Below the pieces are notes generated by a model, which did no database searches, was not told the origin of the DNA, and worked only from the letters and a program-made list of their open reading frames with translations. Shown here one piece after another: positions 2,894-20,348 of a DNA stretch of 64,000 nt. The stretch spans positions 186,001-250,000 of the forward strand of contig NZ_JBBYXK010000005.1 in assembly GCF_039655875.1 (NCBI RefSeq), read 5' to 3'. The DNA comes from Emcibacter sp. SYSU 3D8. Lineage in GTDB: Bacteria; Pseudomonadota; Alphaproteobacteria; SMXS01. Position numbers and translations under genes: made by a program. Position 1 is the stretch's first letter; each line of letters starts with the position of its first letter.

Positions 2894-3184
2894 TCAGATG
2901 CTGGTGCCGGCTCGTTCGGCGGATTTGGCCCGCGCGGCATCCTTGTCCGTGAAATACAGCGCATTGATTTCAATGAAATCCTTTGCTGCCGGCGGAATCT
3001 CGTGATCGGCGAAAATCGCGCCCACGGGACACGCGGAAACGCAGACGCCACAATCGATGCACTGCTCCGGCTCGATATAGACCATGCGGTCCTCATCTTC
3101 CTGGTAGATGCAGTCTACCGGACAGACCTCGATGCAGGACATGTCCTTCACGTCGATGCAGGCGTTGCTGATTACGTAAGTCAT
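2894..3184 (-). CDS. 7Fe-type ferredoxin ([3Fe-4S][4Fe-4S])
   Basis: This is a 96-residue electron carrier. Cysteines are at positions 9, 17, 21, 25, 42, 45, 48 and 52, in the C-x7-C-x3-CP and CxxCxxC-x3-CP pattern of Azotobacter FdI-like ferredoxins. In that family three cysteines hold a [3Fe-4S] cluster and four hold a [4Fe-4S] cluster. The open frame extends far upstream antisense to the P450 at 3476, but only this part looks like protein. The gene is divergent from that P450, and such ferredoxins often donate electrons to bacterial P450s, so partnership is a reasonable inference. No ferredoxin reductase is in the window. Confidence 0.92.
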   Translation of the reverse strand: MTYVISNACIDVKDMSCIEVCPVDCIYQEDEDRMVYIEPEQCIDCGVCVSACPVGAIFADHEIPPAAKDFIEINALYFTDKDAARAKSAERAGTSI

Positions 3185-3475: not shown

Positions 3476-4927
3476 ATGAATACGGAACCCTTTGCGGCGG
3501 TATTCGCGCGCGCGCTTGGCGCCGATGCCGGGGATTTGACGGAAAAGGCAGCGGACGGCGACTTCCAGGATATCTTTCCCCTGATGCCGGTGGGTGAACG
3601 AGTCGACATGGGCTCGGCGCCCGATGGCACCCCGCTGATCGATCCCCGCATTTTCTTCTCGGCAGAGTTCCGCCGCAACCCGTGGCCCTATTACCGGCTG
3701 ATGCGCGATCATTATCCGGTCTACTTCAACCAGCTGAACAACACCTATTACGTCACCCGGTACGACGACATGACCGAGTGCTATTTCGACGACATCGGTT
3801 TCAACACGATACCGAAGGGATCGTCGAACGGCGTGCTGGGCAACGTCACCCATGAACTGAGCGGCGTCGAACATCGCCGCCGGCGCAACCTGTTCGGCCA
3901 GCATCTTGTCGGCAAGGCGCTGGAGAACCGCGTGCCCGCGATCGAGCGCCTGGCGCAGGAGATGATCGACGACTGGGCCAGCGTGGATGCGCCGTGGTGC
4001 ATTACCAACGGCAACGTCCGGACCATCGAACTGGGCCAGGCCTTCGCCGATGCGTTCCCCGTCCGGGTCGTCTGCGACGTGCTGGGCTTTCCCAAGGAAG
4101 CACGCGGCAACTTCGTCTACTGGTACAATTCCATCATGGGCGGTCTCGGCGCCTCGGAAACCCACAAGCAGGGCATGGAAGCGCGCCAGCACCTCGAGGA
4201 TTACGTCGAATCCATCGTCGAGGAACGGCGCGCGCGTCCCACCTTCCTCTACGACAATGACGGCAACAAGCTCGGCAAGGACATCATCTCGAAGCTGTGT
4301 GAAAGCCAGGTGGACGGCGACTTCCTGTCGACCGAGGAAATCACCGCGCTGATCGCGCTGGTGGTCGCCGGCGGCGGCGAGACCACCCGCGGCACGCTGA
4401 TGAACATGTGGTACAGCCTGCTGCAGAAGACGGATCAGGCCGAAGCGGCGCTGGCTGATGAATCCCTGTGGGATGCCGTATTCCATGAGACGCTGCGCCA
4501 CTCGAACCCGATCGGCGGCCAGCCGCGCCACGCCACGTTCGATGTGCAGATCCACGGCATGACGGTGCCGGCGGGCTCGCTGATCGAGATGGTCAACTTC
4601 TCCGGCAGCCATGACGAGCGGATCTTCGCCGATCCGGACAATTTCAACATCTTCCGGGCCGACCTCTACACCGGAAAACTGCTGCGCAGCGGCTTCCGCA
4701 AGGAGGGCAAGTGCAGCCATATGGCGTTTGGCGTCGGCCCGCATATGTGCCCGGGCGCATGGATTTCGCACCAGGAAGCGGTGGTGGGCTCGAAGATCCT
4801 GTCTCGGACCATGAAAAACCCCCGGATCAACCGCGACCGCATGCCCAAGGACATCGACGGCGTCAGCCTGGCGCCGATCGGCATCAACAAGACCCGCGAG
4901 CTTTGGCTCGACTACGATCTGACCTGA
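3476..4927 (+). CDS. Cytochrome P450, module 1 catalytic member
   Basis: This haem-thiolate monooxygenase has 483 residues. ATG 3476 was chosen because a GGGGA ribosome site precedes it and the paralogue at 6424 aligns from there; the frame is open further upstream. The I-helix oxygen-activation motif is AGGGETT, the K-helix ExxR is ETLRH, and the haem loop FGVGPHMCPG places the ligand Cys at residue 425. All key residues are intact. The substrate is unknown. It lies 10 nt upstream of a P450 homologue without the haem cysteine, so the two are almost certainly co-expressed. The 6424 gene is its closest relative in the window. Confidence 0.95.
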   Translation: MNTEPFAAVFARALGADAGDLTEKAADGDFQDIFPLMPVGERVDMGSAPDGTPLIDPRIFFSAEFRRNPWPYYRLMRDHYPVYFNQLNNTYYVTRYDDMTECYFDDIGFNTIPKGSSNGVLGNVTHELSGVEHRRRRNLFGQHLVGKALENRVPAIERLAQEMIDDWASVDAPWCITNGNVRTIELGQAFADAFPVRVVCDVLGFPKEARGNFVYWYNSIMGGLGASETHKQGMEARQHLEDYVESIVEERRARPTFLYDNDGNKLGKDIISKLCESQVDGDFLSTEEITALIALVVAGGGETTRGTLMNMWYSLLQKTDQAEAALADESLWDAVFHETLRHSNPIGGQPRHATFDVQIHGMTVPAGSLIEMVNFSGSHDERIFADPDNFNIFRADLYTGKLLRSGFRKEGKCSHMAFGVGPHMCPGAWISHQEAVVGSKILSRTMKNPRINRDRMPKDIDGVSLAPIGINKTRELWLDYDLT

Positions 4928-4937
4928 GGCAAGCGGC

Positions 4938-6308
4938 ATGAGCACTGATGAGAAGCAGGCGGTCAGGCCGCCGTCCTACGGGGCCGGCGCCCCGGACAAG
5001 GACGCGTTTACCGGCCGCAACGGCGTGCCCCTGTATACGAGGAACGGCAACCAGAACGATTACCGGACCTATGAGGTCTATCAGCGCGAGCGGGTCAAGG
5101 AGGCCACCGACAAGATCCGCCCGATCCAGTTGATATCGCCCGAATTCATCAAGGACCCCTATCCGGTTCTCGAGATCCTGCGCGAGAATTATCCGTTCTA
5201 CCGCGACTGGCTTGGCAACTCGTTCTGGGTCACCCGGTATGATGACGTGACATCGATCTTCACCGACGATGCCAATTTCGAGACACGGCCCAAGCGCTGG
5301 TTCTATGGCATCGAGGACCTCGGGCGCGATCTGGGACAGGAAGTGCCGGTGCTGACGGCGCAGGCCGCCCGGATCGATGCCAATGTGGCGCGCATCGCCG
5401 CCGAGATCGTTGACGGCTTCAGGGCCAATGGCGGCGCCGATCTTGCCATCGACTTCGCCGCGCGCCTGCCGTTGGAGTTGCTCGCCTGCGTGCTCGACCT
5501 GCCGAAGGAGGATTTCCCCACATTCGTCGATCGCTACTGGCGCATGCAGCGCGGCGCCATGTGGGAGCCGAAAAGCCGGCAGGCCGGACTCGGCGCCATC
5601 CAGGAACTGGTCGAGTATTTCCGGCCCATCCTCGCGGCACGGCGCGCCCGCCCGGGAGACGATCTCCTCTCGGCGATCGCCGGCCTCGACCTCGAGGACG
5701 GCCCCGCGACGGCGGAAGACGTGGTTGTGACCCTTCTTGAGCAGGATCACGAGACCCTGCATGGCGGCATCGCCAATATGTGGCTCCAGTTGATGACGCA
5801 TCCGGAGCAACTCGACTTGGTGAAGCGCGAGCGGCGCATGGTGAAGTTTGCCTGGCTGGAAACGCTGCGGCATTCCACGCCGGTCGTGACGGCTAACCGC
5901 TTCTCGAGACACGAAGTCGAACGGTTCGGCCGGCTGATTCCGATCGGCGCCCTGCTGCATTGTTCGGCCGCCGCCGCCAACCGCGATCCGCGCCAATACA
6001 AGGAACCGGACCGGTTCATCGTCGGCCGGAAGGACCTGTGCCAGCGTGAGCCGCGCGGCCAATACCGGGCCGACGGTTTGCCTGCCGGCTTGGCATTCGG
6101 CCTGGGCAAGCCCACCAGGCATCCGGCCGTACCGGAAGACCGTCCGCGCTCCCTTTATGCGCTCTGCCGTGACACCGCGACGACAGCCTCGAACGTGCTC
6201 CTCGAAGCATTGCCGGACCTGCGGCTAAAGCCTGGCGCCACGCCGGCATTGCGCAGCCTGCGGCTTGGCGAGATGCATACGTGCTGGCACCTGCCGGTGG
6301 TGTTCTGA
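4938..6308 (+). CDS. P450-family protein lacking the haem-ligand cysteine, module 1 partner
   Basis: The 456-residue protein has the P450 fold signature but degenerate active-site motifs. The K-helix ETLRH is kept. The haem loop reads FGLGKPTRHPA, so residue 394, where the axial Cys belongs, is Arg, and the preceding His is Pro. The I-helix segment is EQDHETLHGG instead of AGGGETTRG. It therefore should not bind haem in the normal way. A conserved Cys in KDLCQREPRG lies about 29 residues earlier. Known Cys-less P450 homologues such as EryCII and DesVIII act as activator subunits. By analogy this may be a structural or allosteric partner of the P450 just upstream; that is inference. Confidence 0.88.
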   Translation: MSTDEKQAVRPPSYGAGAPDKDAFTGRNGVPLYTRNGNQNDYRTYEVYQRERVKEATDKIRPIQLISPEFIKDPYPVLEILRENYPFYRDWLGNSFWVTRYDDVTSIFTDDANFETRPKRWFYGIEDLGRDLGQEVPVLTAQAARIDANVARIAAEIVDGFRANGGADLAIDFAARLPLELLACVLDLPKEDFPTFVDRYWRMQRGAMWEPKSRQAGLGAIQELVEYFRPILAARRARPGDDLLSAIAGLDLEDGPATAEDVVVTLLEQDHETLHGGIANMWLQLMTHPEQLDLVKRERRMVKFAWLETLRHSTPVVTANRFSRHEVERFGRLIPIGALLHCSAAAANRDPRQYKEPDRFIVGRKDLCQREPRGQYRADGLPAGLAFGLGKPTRHPAVPEDRPRSLYALCRDTATTASNVLLEALPDLRLKPGATPALRSLRLGEMHTCWHLPVVF

Positions 6309-6332
6309 CCGCCGCAAGTCCAGCAATTAACC

Positions 6333-6346
6333 AGTCACGTGTGACT
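6333..6346. promoter_or_regulatory. Candidate operator of P450 module 2: inverted repeat AGTCAC-GT-GTGACT
   Basis: This is an exact 6-bp inverted repeat followed by TTT, 77 nt upstream of the second module's first start codon. It shares the AGTCA-N4-TGACTTT pattern and the same 77-nt distance to the start with the site at 3384. It sits in the 115-nt gap between the modules, so module 2 probably has its own promoter. Confidence 0.5.
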
Positions 6347-6423
6347 TTTGCCTGATTGCCAACCCATCATCGAGGATGTAGGTTGACCGCTCCGGCCCAA
6401 CCTGAACCGAATGAGGCCTCCGA

Positions 6424-7896
6424 ATGGACTCCGTCACCTCTTTTCTCAGCACGATTGTCGAGAACGCCGACAAACCGAATGAGGGCAACGCCCCTTCGTC
6501 CGCGACCCATGCGCCGCGCGCGCAATCGGTGTCGGCCCACGACTTTCCGCTGATGCCCGTGGGCGAGGCGTATGACATGGGCCATGCGCCCGACGGCACG
6601 CCGCTGATCGACCCGCGAATCTTCAATTCCGCCGAGTTCTACCGGAACCCGTACCCGTATTACAAAATCATGCGGGACCATTATCCGGTGTTCTTCGACA
6701 AGCTGCACAATTGCTATTACGTCACCCGCTACGACGACATCACCACCTGCTATTTCGACGACGAAGGCTTCAACACGATCCCGAAGGGGTCGTCGAGCGG
6801 TGTGCTCGGCAACACCCAGCTGGAGTTGAGCGGCGTCGAGCATCGCCGCCGCCGCAACCTCTATGGCCAGCACCTGGTCGGCAAGTCCCTCGACAACCGG
6901 ATGCATGCCATCGAGAGCATCGCGGAAGAGATGATCGCCGATTGGGACAATCTGGATGAAAGCGTCGTGCAGGACCGCAACGGCGTCCGCTCGGTCGCCA
7001 TCGGCAAGGCGTTTGCCAACGAGTTTCCGATCCGGGTCGTCTGCGATGTGCTGGGCTTCCCCAAGGAATCCCGCAAGAACTTCTTCTACTGGTACAATTC
7101 CATGATGTCCGGCCTCGGCGGTTCGGAGACCCATCATCAGGGCCTCGAAGCGCGCCAGGACCTGGAAGATTATGTCGGCACGCTGGTCGAGGAGCGCCGC
7201 GCGCATCCGACCTATCTCTATGACGCGGCCGGCAACCCCATCGGCAAGGACATCATCTCCAAGCTGTGCGAGACCCAGATCGACGGCGATTACCTGTCGA
7301 CCGAGGAGATCACCTCGAACATCGCCCTGGTGGTGGGCGGCGGCGGCGAGACCACCCGCGGCGCCATCCTGAATATGTGGTACCTGCTGCTGCAGCATCC
7401 GCAGCAGCTCGAGGCCGTGCTGGAAGATCCCGAAGCCATGTGGGACGTGGCGTTCCACGAGACGCTGCGGCATTCGACCCCGATCGGCGGCCAGCCGCGC
7501 CACAACTCGTTCGACATCGAACTGCACGGTGTGAAGATCCCGGCCGGCTCACTGGTCAACATGGTCGACTTTTCCGCCAACCACGACGACCGCATCTTCA
7601 ACGATCCGGAAGCGTTCAATATCTTCCGGCCCGACCTGTACAGCGGCAAGCTGCTGCGCAGCGGCTTCCGCAAGGAAGGCAAGTGCAGCCATATGGCGTT
7701 CGGCGTCGGCCCGCATCTGTGCCCCGGCGCGTGGATTTCGCACCAGGAAGCCGTGATCGGCTCGAAGATCCTGCAGCGCCATTTGAAGAACCCGCGCCTG
7801 AACGTGGACAAGATGCCAAAGGACTTCGACGGCAGCCTGATGCCGATTGGCTTGATCTCGGCCAAGGAAGTCTGGATCGACTACGACCTGGAATAG
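6424..7896 (+). CDS. Cytochrome P450, module 2 catalytic member
   Basis: This 490-residue P450 is a close paralogue of the one at 3476. Long blocks are shared, for example DGTPLIDPRIF, ELSGVEHRRRRNL and GKDIISKLCE. The I-helix is GGGGETT, the ExxR motif is ETLRH, and the haem loop FGVGPHLCPG gives Cys 433. The N terminus is longer and Ala/Ser-rich compared with module 1, then converges at FPLMPVGE. It is followed 9 nt later by a Cys-less homologue, repeating the module 1 layout. The substrate is unknown. Tandem duplication of the whole gene pair followed by divergence is the simplest history. Confidence 0.95.
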   Translation: MDSVTSFLSTIVENADKPNEGNAPSSATHAPRAQSVSAHDFPLMPVGEAYDMGHAPDGTPLIDPRIFNSAEFYRNPYPYYKIMRDHYPVFFDKLHNCYYVTRYDDITTCYFDDEGFNTIPKGSSSGVLGNTQLELSGVEHRRRRNLYGQHLVGKSLDNRMHAIESIAEEMIADWDNLDESVVQDRNGVRSVAIGKAFANEFPIRVVCDVLGFPKESRKNFFYWYNSMMSGLGGSETHHQGLEARQDLEDYVGTLVEERRAHPTYLYDAAGNPIGKDIISKLCETQIDGDYLSTEEITSNIALVVGGGGETTRGAILNMWYLLLQHPQQLEAVLEDPEAMWDVAFHETLRHSTPIGGQPRHNSFDIELHGVKIPAGSLVNMVDFSANHDDRIFNDPEAFNIFRPDLYSGKLLRSGFRKEGKCSHMAFGVGPHLCPGAWISHQEAVIGSKILQRHLKNPRLNVDKMPKDFDGSLMPIGLISAKEVWIDYDLE

Positions 7897-7905
7897 GGCC
7901 CGACA

Positions 7906-9279
7906 ATGAGCACCACAGAAGCGACCCGGGCCGCGGCAGGCACCGGCAAACCTCAGGACGCGGCAGCGCCCAAGATCACGTATGGCCGCAACGGCGTGCC
8001 GATCACGCCGGGCGGCGTGAAGGGGCATGGCTTCCGCACCTACGAGATCCATCAGCGCGAGCGGCTCGGCCAGTCCACGGCCAAGATCAAGCCGGCGCAG
8101 CTGATCTCGCCGGACTTCATCCGGGATCCCTATCCGTTCCTGGAAATCCTGCGGGAAAACTATCCCAGTTACCGGGACTGGCTGGAGAATTCCTACTGGA
8201 TCACCCGGTATGACGATGTGACGTCGATCTTCACCGACGACGCCAATTTCGAGACCCGGCCGCGCCGCTGGTTCTACAACATCGCCGATTATGGCCGCGA
8301 CCTGCGCCAGGAGCTGCCGGTGCTGTTCGCCCAGGCCAAGGCCATCGACGGCAACGCCCAGGCGGTCGCCGAGGAAATCGTCAGTGACATCAGGGCCAAG
8401 GGCGGCGCCAATCTTGGCATAGACTTCGCCGCCCGCTTCGCACTGGAATTGCTGGTCCGCCAGCTCGACCTGCCGACGGAAGACGCGCCGAAATTCTGCG
8501 AGCGCTACTGGCGCATGACCCACGGCTTCAACGTCGACCCGGTCGCCGAACAGGACGGCCTCGCCGCGATCCGCGAGCTGACCGAATATTTCCGGCCCCT
8601 GCTCGCCAGCCGCCGCGCCAACCCCGGCGACGACCTGATCTCGGCGGTTGCCGGCCTCGACCTGGACGGTGGTCCCGCTACAGCCGAGGATCTGGTGGTG
8701 ACGCTGCTTGAAGGCGACCACGAAACGCTGCATGGCGGCCTCGCCAACACGCTGTTCCTGCTGCTGACCAACGCCGGCGAGTTCCAGAAGGTGAAGGACG
8801 AGCGCCGCATGGCCAAGTTCGCCTTCCTCGAGGCGCTACGCCACTCGGCGCCGGTGCTGTCGGCCCGCCGCTTCGCACGCCACGAGGTCGAGCGCTTCGG
8901 CAAGCTGATCCCGGAAGGCGGCCTGATGATCTGTTCGGCAGGTGCCGCCAACCGCGACCCGCGTCAGTACAAGGATCCGGAGAAGTTCATCGTTGGCCGC
9001 AAGGACCTGTGCCAGCGCGAGCCGCGCGGCCAGTATCGCGCCGACGGCCTGCCCGCCGGCATCGCCTTCGGGTTCGGCAAGCCGTCCAGGCATCCGGCGA
9101 TACCCGAGGACAGGCCCCGGTCGATGTATGCCATCACCCGCGACACCGCGACGACGGCACTCAACGTGCTGCTCGACAGCTTCCCCGATCTGCATCTGAA
9201 GCCCGGCGCCAAGCCGGAGTTGCGCTCGCTGAAGCTGTGGGACACCCACACCTGCTGGGACCTGCCTGTCGAGTTCTAA
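7906..9279 (+). CDS. P450-family protein lacking the haem-ligand cysteine, module 2 partner
   Basis: This 457-residue paralogue of the 4938 gene has the same replacements. The haem loop is FGFGKPSRHPA with Arg 395 at the ligand position, the I-helix is EGDHETLHGG, and EALRH is kept as ExxR. The block KDLCQREPRGQYRADGLPAG is identical in the two copies. Retention of identical degenerate motifs in both copies, with the rest of the fold under apparent constraint, argues for a selected function rather than decay. N-terminal residues 1-25 are variable and Ala/Thr-rich. A strong terminator follows at 9309, closing the module. Confidence 0.88.
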   Translation: MSTTEATRAAAGTGKPQDAAAPKITYGRNGVPITPGGVKGHGFRTYEIHQRERLGQSTAKIKPAQLISPDFIRDPYPFLEILRENYPSYRDWLENSYWITRYDDVTSIFTDDANFETRPRRWFYNIADYGRDLRQELPVLFAQAKAIDGNAQAVAEEIVSDIRAKGGANLGIDFAARFALELLVRQLDLPTEDAPKFCERYWRMTHGFNVDPVAEQDGLAAIRELTEYFRPLLASRRANPGDDLISAVAGLDLDGGPATAEDLVVTLLEGDHETLHGGLANTLFLLLTNAGEFQKVKDERRMAKFAFLEALRHSAPVLSARRFARHEVERFGKLIPEGGLMICSAGAANRDPRQYKDPEKFIVGRKDLCQREPRGQYRADGLPAGIAFGFGKPSRHPAIPEDRPRSMYAITRDTATTALNVLLDSFPDLHLKPGAKPELRSLKLWDTHTCWDLPVEF

Positions 9280-9423: not shown

Positions 9424-10617
9424 GTGGCACGGCATGAACTGATCGAGATGGCGCGCGACAATATCGGGCATGCCCAGGCGGGCACCATCGCGCAGGAAGC
9501 GGACGTGTTCAAGGTACCGGCCTCGAACTATTTCGACCCGGACCGCTTCAAGCTGGAAATCGACAAGGTCTTCAAGCGCATCCCGCTGATGCTGGCGGCC
9601 ACGGCCGAGCTGCCGCAGCCGGGCGACTACAAGGCCATGGACGTGGTCGGCCTGCCCGTGCTGATCTCGCGCGGCGGCGACGGCGTCGCCCGGGCGTTCA
9701 TCAATTCGTGCAGCCACCGGGGCGCGCCCATCGTCAAGCCGGGCACCGGCAAGGCGCGGCGCTTCGTCTGCGGCTATCACGCGTGGTCTTTCGACTACAA
9801 GGGCAACCTGGTTGCCGTCGCCGCCAAGGAAGATTTCGGTGAGATCGACATGGCGCAATACGGCCTAGTGCCGTTACCGATCACCGAGCGCGCCGGCCTG
9901 ATCTGGGTCATCCTCGATGCGGATTCCCCGGTCGAGATGGACGCCTTCCTGGCCGGCTACGACGAGATGCTGGGCGCGTTCGGCCTGGAGAACTGGCACC
10001 TGTTCGAGGCCCGCACGCTAAAGGGCCCGAACTGGAAGATCGCCTATGACGGTTATCTGGACCTGTACCACCTGCCCGTCCTGCACCGCGAGACCTTCGG
10101 CGAGCAGATGTCCAACCGGGCGCTGTACTACGCCTGGGGACCGCACCAGCGGGTAACGTCGCCGTCGAAACAGATGATCGGCCTGCTGGAGAAGCCTGAG
10201 GACGAGTGGAGCAGCGATGTCCTGTCGGCCGGCGTCTGGACCATCTTCCCGCACATTTCAATCGCCTCGTTCCGGGGCGGCGGACGCAGCATCATGCTGT
10301 CGCAACTGTTCCCCGGCGAGACGCCCGGCGAATCCTTCACCACCCAGATGTACCTGATGGAGAACGAGCCGACCGACGAGCAGCGGCTCGAGGCACTGCA
10401 GCAGTTCAAGCTGCTGGAATATGTCGTGCAGGAAGAGGATTACGCCATTGGCCTGCGTCAGCAGAAGGCGCTGGAAAGCGGCGCGCGCAAGCACGTGCTG
10501 TTCGGCCGAAACGAAGGCGGCGGACACCGCTTCCACCGCTGGGTGGACCGAATTCTCGAGACCAGCGACCAGGACCTGAACGCGCTGTTCCGCGCGGGCA
10601 CCCCACAGGACACGTAA
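9424..10617 (+). CDS. Rieske [2Fe-2S] aromatic-ring/steroid-type oxygenase, alpha subunit
   Basis: This is a terminal oxygenase subunit of 397 residues with GTG start 9424 preceded by GAGGTGG. The N-terminal Rieske domain has CSHRGAP and CGYHAWSF, the Cys-x-His...Cys-x2-His cluster ligands, near residues 98-120. The C-terminal catalytic domain has the mononuclear iron region DGYLDLYHLPVLH near residue 212, with the bridging Asp and two His. No beta subunit, ferredoxin or reductase is adjacent, so it is probably a homo-oligomeric type that borrows electrons. Dioxygenation, hydroxylation or demethylation are all possible. The P450 modules just upstream suggest a shared catabolic or tailoring pathway, but a terminator separates them. 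Confidence 0.93.
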   Translation: MARHELIEMARDNIGHAQAGTIAQEADVFKVPASNYFDPDRFKLEIDKVFKRIPLMLAATAELPQPGDYKAMDVVGLPVLISRGGDGVARAFINSCSHRGAPIVKPGTGKARRFVCGYHAWSFDYKGNLVAVAAKEDFGEIDMAQYGLVPLPITERAGLIWVILDADSPVEMDAFLAGYDEMLGAFGLENWHLFEARTLKGPNWKIAYDGYLDLYHLPVLHRETFGEQMSNRALYYAWGPHQRVTSPSKQMIGLLEKPEDEWSSDVLSAGVWTIFPHISIASFRGGGRSIMLSQLFPGETPGESFTTQMYLMENEPTDEQRLEALQQFKLLEYVVQEEDYAIGLRQQKALESGARKHVLFGRNEGGGHRFHRWVDRILETSDQDLNALFRAGTPQDT

Positions 10618-11345: not shown

Positions 11346-12245
11346 CTAGCCGTTCGCATCGACCCCCAGCGCCCGAAGCGCCGCGACCCCAAGCGACTGC
11401 CGGACGTTGACGTAGTCAGCCCATGGATCCGGTTCCGCCAAATGCGGTACGGCATCGCCGATATGAACCAAGGCGGCGCTGTGCGTGCCGTCAAGGCTTT
11501 CCCAGGTTACCGGCCAGGCCACCGGCGCCCCCTTCCTCGCTCGGGGTGAATATGGTGCAATAGCGGTCGAGCCGCGCTCATTGCGCAGATAATCGATAAA
11601 GATGCGGCCCTTGCGCTTTGCCTTGCTCATGGTGGCCAGATATTTGTCCGGCTGGTCCTCGGACATCCGCAGCGCGAGGGATTTGGCGAATTCCTTGATC
11701 ACCGGCCATTCGTGGCGTCGCCGGATGGGCGTGACCACATGGATACCCTTGCCGCCGGTCAGCAACGGGAAACTGCGCAGGCCCAGCGCATCGAGGATGT
11801 CGCGCACCCGCAAGGCGGCCTGCTTCACGGACTCGAAACTGACGGACGGATCGGGGTCGAGGTCGAAGACGATGCGGTTGGGCTTTTCGATATCGTCGAT
11901 CATGGAGCCCCAGATGTGGAATTCCAGCACGCCCATCTGGGCGGCGCGCACCAGACCGGTTTCGTCGGTCAGGTAAAGGTAGTCGTCTTCGCCGCCATCC
12001 TTCTCGCGCACCGGCAGCGGCTTCAGAGACGGCGCCAGGCCCGCTGTTCCATGCTTCTGGAAAAAGCACTGTTTGGCTGCGCCTTCGGGGCAGCGCACCA
12101 GGCTGACCAGCCGGCGCGAGACATAGGGCAGCATGCGCGGCGACACAGCGTGGAGATACCTGGCGAGATCGAGCTTGGTCACGCCCTGATCGGCATAGAG
12201 CACCTTGTCCGGATGGCTGAGTGTGACGCCCGCGACGGCAACCAT
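11346..12245 (-). CDS. LigD polymerase (primase) domain as a separate protein
   Basis: This is the archaeo-eukaryotic-primase-like polymerase of bacterial non-homologous end joining, which fills gaps and adds ribo- or deoxynucleotides at breaks. The 299 residues cover only the POL domain. They start with the typical LSHPDKVLY region and include the catalytic acidic pair in VFDLDPD near residue 127 and GGKGIHVV near residue 165. In most LigD proteins POL is fused to the ligase. Here it is a stand-alone ORF whose ATG overlaps the stop of the PE-ligase gene by one base (TGATG), so translation is probably coupled. Confidence 0.92.
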   Translation of the reverse strand: MVAVAGVTLSHPDKVLYADQGVTKLDLARYLHAVSPRMLPYVSRRLVSLVRCPEGAAKQCFFQKHGTAGLAPSLKPLPVREKDGGEDDYLYLTDETGLVRAAQMGVLEFHIWGSMIDDIEKPNRIVFDLDPDPSVSFESVKQAALRVRDILDALGLRSFPLLTGGKGIHVVTPIRRRHEWPVIKEFAKSLALRMSEDQPDKYLATMSKAKRKGRIFIDYLRNERGSTAIAPYSPRARKGAPVAWPVTWESLDGTHSAALVHIGDAVPHLAEPDPWADYVNVRQSLGVAALRALGVDANG

Positions 12246-13846
12246 CAGTCGCGCCCCTTTTCCGGCTGCTCGCGTATTACCGCCTGCGCCGGCTTGTCCT
12301 CGCGCAGGCCCAGGAAACGGCCATGCCGGACAAGGCCATCCCTGGTGAACTCGGCGAACGCAATGTTGGCAACCAGCTTCGGCTGCAGCCAGCGCGCCTT
12401 ACGTGCCACATCGGCCGGGACCGGCCCATCGACCGGCCGCGTTTTGCGCGAAAGGCGGCGAAAGCGGCTCGACAGGTCGTCCAGCGCCGCATGGGAGAAC
12501 CCGCTCCCCACCCTGCCCGCATAGCGCAGGACCCCGCCTTCGTTGACAGCCAGCAGGATCGAGGAGAACGGCCGGTTCCTGTCCGAGGGCGACCAGCCGA
12601 CGATGACGAATTCCTGCGATGCCCCGCACTTGATCTTCAGCCAGGCATGGCCACGGCCCGAGACATATTTCGCGCGGGACCGCTTGGCGATCACGCCTTC
12701 GAATCCGCGTCCGCACAGCGCGCCGAGCATGGCCTGGCCGTTGCCCTCGACATGGTCGGTGTAAAATACCGGCCCGGTCTTGCCGACCTTGCCCAGCAGT
12801 TTGCGAAGCATGTCCTTGCGCTCGACCAGCGGCTTCGAACGCAGGCTCTCGCCGCCAAGCGCGAGCACATCGAATACAAAGAAAGACAGGCTGCCGCCTC
12901 CACCCTTCAATTGCGCCTGCAGCGCCCCGAAATCGGATTTCCCTTCCTTGTCGACCACGACAATCTCCCCGTCGAGAAGAGCACCGTCGAGGTTGAGCGA
13001 GGCAAGAGCCTGCGCGATAGCCGGATATTTTGACGTCCAGTCGAGCCCATTCCGGGTGTAGATGCGCACCTCGTCGCCTGAAGCGGCGGCGATCGCGCGG
13101 TAGCCGTCGAACTTGATCTCGAACAGCCAGTCATCGCCTTCAGGTACGTCCTCGACGAGGGTCGCCAGCGCCGGCTTGACGAAGCCTGGCAATGGCGATG
13201 ACCCCGCCCTGCTCGCCGCATTCCTGCGTTGCGGTGTATCGTTCGCCTTGCCTGGTTTCCGGCGCCGCTCGGGATTCTCGGCAATGGCCTTCAATGTGCG
13301 CCCGGTCGCGACGCTCTCCAGTGCCGCTTCGGTAATCTCGACCTCCCGCCGGGCCTCGTCGTCATCGCCCTTGATCAGCAGCCAGTTCTCGCGTTTCTCG
13401 CTGCCGCGGTTTCGCATGCGGATCAGCGCCCAGCGGCCCTTGAGACGTTCGCCGTGGAGCACGAATTCGAGACGTCCATCCTTCAACCCCCGGCGTGCAT
13501 CCTTGATCGGTTCCCACGTTCCCTGATCCCAGAGCAGCACAGTGCCGGCGCCGTAATTGCCGGACGGGATGGTACCTTCGAAGTCGCCATAATCGACGGG
13601 ATGGTCCTCGGTGCGCACCGCAAGGCGCTTTTGCGCCGGATCCAGGCTGGGCCCGCGCGTGATCGCCCAGCTCTTGAGGACGCCGTCGAGCTCCAGCCGA
13701 AGATCGTAATGCAGCCGCGTCGCCGCATGCTTCTGGATCGCATAGAGGTTGCCGGCCCGCGTCGCCTTGCCGCCCTGCGGCTCGGGCGTGCGGTCGAATT
13801 GCCGCTTCGCCCGGTAGGTGCCGAGCTGATCGGAACCGCGCGGCAT
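12245..13846 (-). CDS. ligD: LigD 3'-phosphoesterase-ATP-dependent DNA ligase
   Basis: The protein has 533 residues and two domains. Residues about 30-150 form the phosphoesterase domain (HAATRLHYDLRLELDG, DHPVDYGDFEGTIPSGNYG), which trims 3' ends. Residues about 220-525 form the ATP-dependent DNA ligase with adenylation Lys 245 in EIKFDGYR and the OB-fold C terminus. It lacks the POL domain, which is encoded by the next gene. It seals double-strand breaks together with Ku. It starts 1 nt after the ku stop codon in the same operon. Confidence 0.95.
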   Translation of the reverse strand: MPRGSDQLGTYRAKRQFDRTPEPQGGKATRAGNLYAIQKHAATRLHYDLRLELDGVLKSWAITRGPSLDPAQKRLAVRTEDHPVDYGDFEGTIPSGNYGAGTVLLWDQGTWEPIKDARRGLKDGRLEFVLHGERLKGRWALIRMRNRGSEKRENWLLIKGDDDEARREVEITEAALESVATGRTLKAIAENPERRRKPGKANDTPQRRNAASRAGSSPLPGFVKPALATLVEDVPEGDDWLFEIKFDGYRAIAAASGDEVRIYTRNGLDWTSKYPAIAQALASLNLDGALLDGEIVVVDKEGKSDFGALQAQLKGGGGSLSFFVFDVLALGGESLRSKPLVERKDMLRKLLGKVGKTGPVFYTDHVEGNGQAMLGALCGRGFEGVIAKRSRAKYVSGRGHAWLKIKCGASQEFVIVGWSPSDRNRPFSSILLAVNEGGVLRYAGRVGSGFSHAALDDLSSRFRRLSRKTRPVDGPVPADVARKARWLQPKLVANIAFAEFTRDGLVRHGRFLGLREDKPAQAVIREQPEKGRD

Positions 13847-13847
13847 G

Positions 13848-14765
13848 TCAGCTCGCCTTCTTCCTGCGGGTAGCGGGCGCCGCCGGCTTGCCCGAGTTCT
13901 TGACGCTGCGTTTCAGCGCCTCGACGAGATCGATGACCGTGCCGCCATTGCCCGCCTCTTCTTCAATGGCCACCGGCTTACGGTTCTTGATCTTGGCATC
14001 GATCAGCGCACGGACCGCCTCGCTGTACTTGTCCTTGAACTGGCCCGAATCGAACGGCGCTGTCTTGCGTTCGATCAGCTCCTTGGCGAGATCGAGCAGT
14101 TCCTTGTCGGGTCTGGCATCGTCGATGCCGGCGAAGAATGGTGCAGCACTTCGCACTTCGTCGGAGAACCGCAACGTTTCCAGCAGCATCCCATGGCCGC
14201 AGGGTTTCAGCGCCGCGATATATTCTCGGTTGCGCATCACGAATTGTCCCAGCCCGATCTTGCCGCTTCCCCGAAGCGCGTCGCGCATGACGTTGTAGGC
14301 CTCTTCGGCAAGCTCGCCATCGGCAACCACGTAATAGGGTCGGTCAAACCAGATGGGATCGATCTCTCCCTGTCCGACGAACTGGACCAGATCGAGGGTC
14401 TTTTTCGCTTCGAGCTTGATCGCGTCGATCTCGTCCGGATCGATCAGGACGTACTGGCCCTTCTCCACCTCGTACCCCTTGACGATCTCATCGGTATCGA
14501 CCGGTCCGATGCCGGGCACGACCTTTTCGTAGCGGATGCGCTTGCCGGACGGCTCGTGTACCTGGTGAAACGATATCTGGGCGCCCGATTTGGTCGCCGG
14601 ATAGAGATTGACCGGCACCGACACCAGGGCCAGACGGAGATTGCCGCCCCAGATCGGACGCGCGCCAGAAGGGCGTGCTTCACGAGGCGTCGCTGCGGCC
14701 TTCCTGCGGGAAGGCGCCTTGGCCTTGGCTGTACTGCGCGGCGTGCGGGTGGGTTTCGTGGCCAT
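13848..14765 (-). CDS. ku: Non-homologous end joining protein Ku
   Basis: This is a DNA-end-binding homodimer that recruits LigD to double-strand breaks. ATG 14765 with GGGAG upstream gives 305 residues. A basic Lys/Arg/Ala-rich N-terminal extension of about 35 residues precedes the Ku core, which begins at RPIWGGNLRLALVSVPVNLY. The core includes YEVEKGQYVLIDPDEID, and the C terminus ends in a basic ATRRKKAS tail. Basic extensions in some bacterial Ku proteins affect DNA threading. It follows the PRC-barrel gene by 26 nt and precedes ligD by 1 nt. Confidence 0.95.
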   Translation of the reverse strand: MATKPTRTPRSTAKAKAPSRRKAAATPREARPSGARPIWGGNLRLALVSVPVNLYPATKSGAQISFHQVHEPSGKRIRYEKVVPGIGPVDTDEIVKGYEVEKGQYVLIDPDEIDAIKLEAKKTLDLVQFVGQGEIDPIWFDRPYYVVADGELAEEAYNVMRDALRGSGKIGLGQFVMRNREYIAALKPCGHGMLLETLRFSDEVRSAAPFFAGIDDARPDKELLDLAKELIERKTAPFDSGQFKDKYSEAVRALIDAKIKNRKPVAIEEEAGNGGTVIDLVEALKRSVKNSGKPAAPATRRKKAS

Positions 14766-14791
14766 GTCTTGCTCCCGGCTTTCGCGCCGCG

Positions 14792-15253
14792 TCATGGAGC
14801 GGGCGCGGCGCTGGATTGTTCGTCGGTGAACACGGTGCCCTGCTGTTCGGGCTTGGCGTACTTGTAGTCGGGCTTGTTTTTCAGTTGGTCCGATGAGGCG
14901 TTGACGGCAACCTTTTTGCCGTTGTCCGAGACGACCACATCCTTCCAGTCAATCGCCACCGTCCGGTCGCCCATGCCGGTCACGATGACTTGCTTGACGT
15001 TGCCTTTTCCATCCACATAGACGCTCTCGATTTCGCCGATGAGTTGATCCCGGGCGCTCGTCAGGTCACGGCCGATGAGGTTCTTTCCCTCGATGGTCCC
15101 CATGGGCTGCTGACCGCCGGCAGCGGCAGCAGCTCCGGGGATGATCGCTGCCGGATTGGACGCAAGCGCCTCGTCGGCGCGGGCTGCGGCGCCGCAGAGT
15201 GTGACTGCTGCCAATAGCAGCAGGCATCCACGGATGCTCCGGCCTCGTTTCAT
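14792..15253 (-). CDS. Exported PRC-barrel domain protein
   Basis: The start at 15253 is chosen by the AGGAG site and signal peptide; the frame is open further upstream without coding character. The 153-residue protein has a Sec signal (RGCLLLLAAVTLCGAAARA) and an Ala/Gly linker. A PRC-barrel-like domain follows from about residue 52 (GTIEGKNLIGRDL...IGEIESVYVDGKG), ending in DWKDVVVSDNGKKV. PRC-barrel proteins bind diverse partners and are common in stress regulons of Alphaproteobacteria. It heads the Ku-LigD operon. A near-consensus EcfG promoter lies about 30 nt upstream. Confidence 0.85.
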   Translation of the reverse strand: MKRGRSIRGCLLLLAAVTLCGAAARADEALASNPAAIIPGAAAAAGGQQPMGTIEGKNLIGRDLTSARDQLIGEIESVYVDGKGNVKQVIVTGMGDRTVAIDWKDVVVSDNGKKVAVNASSDQLKNKPDYKYAKPEQQGTVFTDEQSSAAPAP

Positions 15254-18838: not shown

Positions 18839-20134
18839 TCACTCGGGATCGAATTCCAGCCACAACTCGGGCGGTGAGCGGAAGCCTCCGGAATCGATGT
18901 TCGGCGAGTAGATGCCCGCATGTTCCTTGAACTTGGGCCGCAGATTCTTCAGGGACTTGGCGAAATAGGCGCACGCCAGAACCGCCTCCTGCCGCGCCAT
19001 GGCATAGCCCATGCAGAAGTGCTGCCCCATGCCGAAACCGAGATGGCCGGGCTTGCCGTCCTTGTAGCGGCCCGAGCGGTTTTCACGGCCCATATGCAGA
19101 TCGTCACGGAATGCATCGAACGTATCCGGGTCCTTGAACACCCGCTCGTCCCGGTTGCCTGCGCCAAGATAGATCAGCACCATGGCGCCCTTCGGGATCA
19201 CCTCGTCATACAGCGCCATCTCATTGACGGTGCGGCGTCCCTGGGTATGCACGACCGGGTCGTAACGCATCATCTCGGTGAACACGTTCTCCCAAAGCTC
19301 GGGATTCGCCTTCACCTGGTCGAACTGGTCCGGCCGTGTATACATCATGTGATACATCATGTTGGCGATGGCCTTGTCGGTGGTGTCGCCACCGGCGGCG
19401 AGCAACAGGGCGACGAAGCCCTTGATCTCGTCCATGTCCATCTTCACGCCATCGAGTTCGGCCGCGATGATCCGCGACAGCAGATCCTCGCCCGGGGTCT
19501 TGCGCCGTTCGTTGATCAGCGGCTCCAGATACTCCCACATCTCGTTGCGGGCGGCGATGCCGCGCGCCAGATGCTCGCCGCCGAAGCCGAGGCCGGCGAT
19601 CAGCGCCTGATACCAGCCGACGAACATGTTCTCGTCCTCGCGCGGCAGGCCCAGCATGTTGGAGATGACCCGGATCGGGAACTGGTGGCTGAACTGGGTC
19701 ACCACCTCGACTTCGCCATCCTTGCGGAACTTGTCGATCAACTCGCGGGCGATCATGTCGATCACCGGCAGGAAGTCGTTCAGCTTCTGGCCGACGAACT
19801 GGCCGGCGATGACGTTGCGCAACCAGCGATGCCGGTCGCCGCGGCCATATTCCAGGATGTTCGGGCCGAACACATGGCGCGAGCCAAACTTGTAGGGACC
19901 ATCTTCCTCATAGATGCCGCGGGTATAGGCTTCGCTGTTCTGGAACACGGCGTCTACGTCCCAGTAGCGGCTGATCACCCATCTGTTGTGAAAACGGTCG
20001 TGGTAAATCGGGTGATGATCGCGCAGGCGCTTGTACAGCGGGAACGGATCATGCTGGAAACCAGGCGCATCGAATTCACGAGGGTCGATCTCGTTCTTCA
20101 AGCGGTCCTTGATCATTTCTTCGACGGCCGACAT
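18839..20134 (-). CDS. Cytochrome P450 (ferredoxin-linked)
   Basis: This canonical P450 has 431 residues from ATG 20134; the frame extends upstream without support. It has the I-helix AAGGDTT, ExxR in the EMMRYDPVV segment, and the haem loop GFGMGQHFCMG with Cys near residue 373. Unlike the two modules at 3476-9279 it has no degenerate partner, but it does have its own ferredoxin 5 nt downstream. Its sequence type is not close to the module P450s. The substrate is unknown. The divergent SDR and SnoaL-like genes at 20349-21656 hint at an isoprenoid, steroid or cyclic substrate. Confidence 0.95.
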   Translation of the reverse strand: MSAVEEMIKDRLKNEIDPREFDAPGFQHDPFPLYKRLRDHHPIYHDRFHNRWVISRYWDVDAVFQNSEAYTRGIYEEDGPYKFGSRHVFGPNILEYGRGDRHRWLRNVIAGQFVGQKLNDFLPVIDMIARELIDKFRKDGEVEVVTQFSHQFPIRVISNMLGLPREDENMFVGWYQALIAGLGFGGEHLARGIAARNEMWEYLEPLINERRKTPGEDLLSRIIAAELDGVKMDMDEIKGFVALLLAAGGDTTDKAIANMMYHMMYTRPDQFDQVKANPELWENVFTEMMRYDPVVHTQGRRTVNEMALYDEVIPKGAMVLIYLGAGNRDERVFKDPDTFDAFRDDLHMGRENRSGRYKDGKPGHLGFGMGQHFCMGYAMARQEAVLACAYFAKSLKNLRPKFKEHAGIYSPNIDSGGFRSPPELWLEFDPE

Positions 20135-20348
20135 GTGCTCTCCCCAGCCACATTGCGTCACACCCCATGGGCGACGCCTGACGTAAGCAAATGCTAACGC
20201 AACGCCCGCCGGCCTTACAAGCACGTATGAAGGTGAATAATACGAATCAAAATTCAGGCGTGATTGTCTGTATGGAGCAACGGCTGTGGCGGCGCGTGCG
20301 GATGCCCCCTATCATCGCCCGCAACGGACGCAAACGGGGAGATGCGGG

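Follow-up and report, generated by a model that had tools for sequence, protein, structure and literature searches.

Gene layout of the tandem modules

The stretch of DNA analysed here (the window) consists of 64,000 nucleotides of contig NZ_JBBYXK010000005.1 of Emcibacter sp. SYSU 3D8 (positions 186,001–250,000). Between positions 3476 and 9279, a check of the open reading frames shows four plus-strand genes in line. They form two tandem modules, each made up of a canonical P450 gene followed by the gene of a P450-fold partner protein that does not have the haem cysteine. P450 A (3476–4927, plus strand) contains the haem loop FGVGPHMCPG, with the codon of Cys425 at 4748–4750, and partner A (4938–6308, plus strand) starts 10 nucleotides after it. 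P450 B (6424–7896, plus strand; haem loop FGVGPHLCPG, codon of Cys433 at 7720–7722) is followed after 9 nucleotides by partner B (7906–9279, plus strand), which is in frame with it, a single TAG and three codons lying between them. The two partners are 67–69% identical. Their pseudo-haem loops are FGLGKPTRHPA in partner A and FGFGKPSRHPA in partner B (9067–9099, plus strand), and both have the I-helix sequence ExDHETLHGG (8710–8736, plus strand, in partner B). The first-pass annotation had described modules of a P450 and a Cys-less partner with gaps of 9–10 nucleotides, and all four reading frames, the loops and the I-helices are as it gave them.

In partner A, the N-terminal helix (residues 39–57, YRTYEVYQRERV; 5052–5108, plus strand) was delimited from the model and from conservation. 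At the altered I-helix, EQDHETLHG (residues 268–276; 5739–5765, plus strand), the helix is broken in the model. Residues 364–412 (6027–6173, plus strand) comprise RKDLCQREPRGQYRADGLPAG, followed by the FGLGKPTRHPA loop and an insertion of about nine residues, VPEDRPRS.

A ferredoxin of 96 amino acids (Pfam Fer4; 2894–3184, minus strand) is encoded divergently from P450 A. A divergent homologue of this ferredoxin is located at most 900 bp upstream in 32 of the 70 testable loci, and in 45 loci overall; the loci that contain it are mostly proteobacterial, with nearly none among the actinobacterial ones. Only two such ferredoxins are present in the genome of the window, the other paralogue being 49% identical. 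The divergent ferredoxin is the probable electron donor of the module, likelier in this role than the partner. Neither the ferredoxin nor the conserved N-terminal helix of the partner figured in the first-pass annotation.

The alpha subunit of a Rieske ring-hydroxylating oxygenase (9424–10617, plus strand; Pfam Rieske and Ring_hydroxyl_A) starts 145 nucleotides 3' of partner B, has close relatives in six other loci and probably belongs to the same catabolic operon as the modules. Across the loci, module neighbours include SDRs, further P450s, Rieske oxygenases, the ferredoxin, ThuA, TetR and CoA-transferases; the clustering of neighbours also caught antisense reading frames, and only families confirmed by Pfam were used. 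These neighbours suggest a catabolic setting. A third P450, recognised by the loop FG[IM]G[QP]HFCMG, is present with 25 of 82 pairs, lies directly downstream in 12 of 76, and possibly carries out the next step of the same pathway. Its member in the window (loop FGMGQHFCMG) is located at 18839–20224 on the minus strand. Three other minus-strand reading frames of the window (11346–14795) resemble, as far as sequence goes, a bacterial NHEJ set made up of two LigD-like parts and a Ku-like protein.

The P450s and their Cys-less partners

P450 A and P450 B have, judging from their sequences, the haem-thiolate cysteine, the ExxR motif and the acid-Thr pair of the I-helix that characterise cytochromes P450, and score 89.9 and 91.5 bits, respectively, with the Pfam model PF00067. 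The cysteine is invariant in 65 paired and four solo P450 relatives, and both it and GGGETTRG are invariant or nearly so across the 65 paired proteins. A search of the window's own genome (4.07 Mb) with the partner returned the two partners and 36 other P450-fold genes, which are P450 A, P450 B and 34 more. All 34 keep the cysteine; 33 match the loop pattern and the remaining one (L172) has the loop FTEGIHKCLG. For a proteobacterium, about 38 P450-fold genes in 4.07 Mb are very many.

In four loci, a P450 of this family that is 65–68% identical to P450 B occurs without a partner (L134, 4198–5688; L139, 5979–7925; L140, 7531–8997; L141, 2075–3547, in the numbering of each locus), so not all P450s of the family require one. 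Three of the four are from relatives within the window's own genus. Two of these three relatives (G001 and G005) contain no partner at all, and the third (G004) additionally has two normal pairs. At 14 positions where the 65 paired P450s show almost no variation, the solo proteins have other residues, and their loops are FGVGPHFCPG or FGAGAHFCPG, compared with FGVGPH[LM]CPG in the paired P450s; a ferredoxin of the module type was not found in the four solo loci. They provide a natural contrast set for locating the interface. Broad scans with a P450 query at phylum and order level each found only one genome, too narrow a sample for an unbiased count of unpaired P450s.

Profile-search scores set the partners apart as a discrete, unnamed family: full-length partners reach about 450 bits or more and one fragment at a contig edge has 259, while no other protein exceeds about 225. 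With PF00067, partners A and B score 20.1 and 22.4 bits, both below the gathering score of 22.8, and some of their relatives score better with this model (best E-value 2.5e-9). An AlphaFold2 model of the partner, calculated with 81 sequences, has a pLDDT of 88.5 and a pTM of 0.85 and can be superposed onto CYP134A1 (PDB entry 3nc3) with a Z-score of 39.7 and an r.m.s.d. of 2.5 over 371 residues; according to this confident model, the full P450 fold is retained. Between close relatives, dN/dS of the partner is 0.08–0.16, so it is a functional gene under purifying selection, as the first-pass annotation had argued from the motifs shared by the two copies. These values, together with the wide conservation, rule out a degenerating pseudogene.

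The model contains an N-terminal helix at residues 39–54, in which R43, E46, Q49, R50 and R52 lie; these five are invariant in 90 partners. The helix is kept even in divergent partners, as are RxWxxNxxW, EVERFG, RxDxxxREPRGxYRADGL and, in the pseudo-haem loop, the core PA.P. This pattern suggests that the conserved regions are contact or structural regions, rather than the old catalytic pocket.

In an ungapped alignment of the 90 partners, the position aligned with the cysteine is Lys in 38, Ile in 18, Arg in 17, Val in 9 and another residue in the others, and never Cys; the Arg that had been reported as conserved at this place is thus a feature of a minority. The next residue is His in 64, Tyr in 14, Phe in 8, Trp in 2 and Asn in 1, and a profile alignment sets His, Tyr or Phe, not Arg, opposite the cysteine. 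No Cys is found at or beside the haem site in the 90 partners, nor is any position conserved as an iron ligand. In P450s, the basic motif of the C-helix holds the haem propionates. The profile alignment shows that the partner is without a 22-residue segment, SSsGVLGNTQLELSGiEHRRRR, which corresponds to the C-helix region with the basic motif, and its model shows no C-helix. Because the cysteine, a conserved ligand and the C-helix are all missing, the partner should not be a haem enzyme.

The partner might nevertheless bind haem through a Lys, His or Tyr near the old cysteine, and so be an electron-transfer or second catalytic haem subunit. In 78 of the 90 members residue 395 is His or Tyr, and the ExxR of the K-helix is retained, both of which would fit; but Phe, Trp and Asn also occur at this position, 27 members have Ile or Val at residue 394, and the EHRRRR segment is deleted. 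We consider this very improbable, and haem held by another ligand was rejected as a family feature, as the ligand positions vary over the 90 members. The electron-transfer role proposed for the partner in the first-pass annotation finds no support either, since there is no conserved iron ligand and no C-helix.

The I-helix bears on a different alternative, in which the partner is an enzyme of its own that acts on the substrate or product of the P450 in the vacated haem pocket, for instance as an isomerase, a hydrolase or through a DHExxH metal site, with the two proteins performing consecutive steps and forming no complex. Across 81 partners, the I-helix sequence EDHETLHG has the look of a signature, with E268, D270 and H275 invariant there, and many conserved Arg and acidic residues precede the pseudo-haem loop, both of which would suit an active site. 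However, in the most divergent partners, which are still paired, the I-helix reads GFEARTLHG, FDIDQETLIG or LDIDQDAFIG, and these residues are lost. The DHExxH metal site was rejected on this ground, and the altered I-helix cannot serve as the hallmark of the family that it had been taken for.

Pairing, co-diversification and the predicted complex

In and near the group to which the window belongs, a close relative of the partner was found in 8 of the 96 genomes searched, all eight in one family. Scanning 84,980 species genomes with an alignment of 15 partner sequences yielded 79 loci, every record being a MAG. Their record titles, which span at least two phyla, name Alpha- and Gammaproteobacteria, Acidimicrobiia/Actinomycetota and, once, Acidobacteria, although some of these titles (e.g. 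Bifidobacterium, Kuenenia) look wrong. In the 79 loci, 81 of 82 partner genes are located directly 3' of a same-strand P450 gene from one tight family, a count that includes one locus (L099) scored by eye, its overlapping reading frames having been missed by the script. In the exception (L098), the partner starts at a contig edge, and another contig edge in the same genome truncates a P450 of the family. In a second search, run with a profile on one order and one family, 52 of 52 partners proved to be paired, the most divergent ones included; this search overlaps the first in part of the genomes, and four of its 52 cases stand on repeat stretches of previously counted loci. The gap between the two genes is −25 to +37 nucleotides in 72 of 80 pairs, with 14 overlaps of four nucleotides, as measured from start codons chosen by the script. 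Genomes with two modules carry both as whole pairs. In the gammaproteobacterial genome G490, two separate modules are present (L133, 5612–8473, and L036), as in the family of the window.

The pairing is far above chance, and the consistent adjacency to P450 genes, on which the original proposal had been staked beforehand, is what both searches found. Neighbours in a pathway should sometimes separate, and the almost invariable adjacency and order of the two genes speak against an independent enzyme; with the fused prediction described below, which favours a defined complex, we regard a partner that catalyses a step of its own as unlikely.

In a mirror-tree comparison of 78 pairs, the distance matrices of P450 and partner correlate with r = 0.65, while the best of 2000 permutations reached 0.18. 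In a quick tree, P450 A and partner A each group with the corresponding protein of the pair at locus L027. Part of this co-diversification is shared descent. The same tree unites the partners in a single clade (support 100) with a long stem; the larger group that encloses this clade, also with support 100, takes in the paired P450s, the solo P450s and two more P450s from the window's own genome. A recent duplication of its own P450 was considered as the origin of the partner and rejected, the quick tree showing a long separate branch within the same larger clade.

Because P450 B and partner B share a frame and are separated by one TAG, translating the natural DNA through this TAG yields a single chain of 951 residues. 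The fused alignment contained 24 paired rows and 52 rows with a single half; solo P450s were excluded since the aligner misplaced them. The AlphaFold2 prediction of this chain, about 10% of which is disordered, has a pLDDT of 82.5 and a pTM of 0.79, obtained for the cognate pair alone. By our own estimate from the definition of pTM (d0 about 10.3, a domain fraction of 0.45 for each half), a value of about 0.46 would be expected if the halves, with 10% disorder, were placed independently of each other; the position of P450 B relative to partner B is therefore predicted with confidence. The conserved N-terminal helix is of low confidence in the fused prediction. A physical heterodimer, as the first-pass annotation had proposed, is thus likely on the strength of this model, and is the most likely physical basis of the pairing.

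The strict pairing and the shared fold would fit a dedicated assembly factor (a chaperone or haem-loading protein for the P450, outside the working enzyme) as well as they fit a stable subunit. The correlated divergence over a wide phylogenetic distance and the high fused pTM suggest a lasting interface; a transient one is still compatible with them, and we consider an assembly factor improbable.

A proposed two-subunit P450 and its comparison with known systems

The explanation that best accounts for the gene pairing, the purifying selection, the loss of haem features and the correlated divergence, and for the confidently modelled partner fold, is a two-subunit P450 with a non-catalytic partner that stabilises or tunes it; we put its probability at about two in three. 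The first gene of each module would encode the catalytic, haem-thiolate subunit. The second would encode a non-catalytic P450-fold subunit without the Cys ligand and the C-helix, and with the conserved N-terminal helix. Both subunits would be made from one transcript and are predicted to bind each other. The partner may stabilise or allosterically tune the catalytic subunit, or shape the substrate entrance, and electrons would be supplied by the separate ferredoxin. The enzyme would probably perform one oxidation in a catabolic pathway with the Rieske oxygenase, short-chain dehydrogenases and further P450s.

To our knowledge, what distinguishes the known classes of P450 is their redox partners, and all of them have just one catalytic unit of the P450 fold. 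If real, an obligate pseudo-P450 subunit would add a new means of controlling or shaping P450 catalysis, and a two-subunit enzyme would account for a strictly conserved, unnamed gene family. We lean slightly towards a new class of P450 system in which a catalytic P450 and a haem-less protein of the same fold form an obligate heterodimer, many members having a ferredoxin of their own. Such a class would extend over Alpha- and Gammaproteobacteria, Acidimicrobiia and perhaps Acidobacteria, within lineages that are represented here by MAGs only. Paired P450s may look inactive when expressed alone. Among open-licence papers on heterodimeric, haem-free, auxiliary or pseudo-P450s, no matching description was found, in keeping with the earlier view that the system is undescribed.

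CYP134A1 (CypX), considered here together with the TIGR04538 P450s, is the nearest solved fold to the partner and the nearest solved sequence to P450 A. It is an active, single-subunit P450, and the partner is only about 23% identical to it. The split, inactive P450 EutEFG of a terpenoid cluster, thought to aid EutC (PMC11574762), is similar in being an inactive P450 for which a structural role has been proposed. Unlike the partner, it is a fragmented single case, and its proposed client, EutC, is not a P450.

The closest likeness is to EryCII and DesVIII, glycosyltransferase activators derived from P450s (TIGR04515), whose genes accompany that of their client enzyme and on which this enzyme depends; in EryCII, the C-helices are absent and an added N-terminal helix grips the client enzyme (PMC3391682). 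The partner shares with them the P450 fold, the absence of the haem Cys and of the C-helix, and the extra N-terminal helix. These resemblances would also suit an activator of a glycosyltransferase that stands beside a P450 by chance. However, with the model TIGR04515 the two partners score 90.6 and 82.6 bits (86 and 79 in a second scoring), far below the cut-off of 343 and below many ordinary P450s of their own genome, which reach up to 163. No glycosyltransferase is present among the 25 commonest of 76 Pfam neighbour families in 28 sampled loci, and the partner always adjoins a P450. An activator of the TIGR04515 type was ruled out by the low score and these neighbour families, and the chance-neighbour explanation has a negligible probability. 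Since the partners score below many ordinary P450s, the likeness to EryCII looks like parallel loss rather than shared membership; the partner clade groups with P450s of its own genomes in a tree that contains no EryCII sequence. The partner is most likely an obligate, non-catalytic, EryCII-like subunit, and differs from EryCII and DesVIII in that its client gene encodes an active-looking P450 instead of a glycosyltransferase. If so, the route taken by EryCII, from loss of haem to regulator, would have been taken once more, in this case with a P450 as client.
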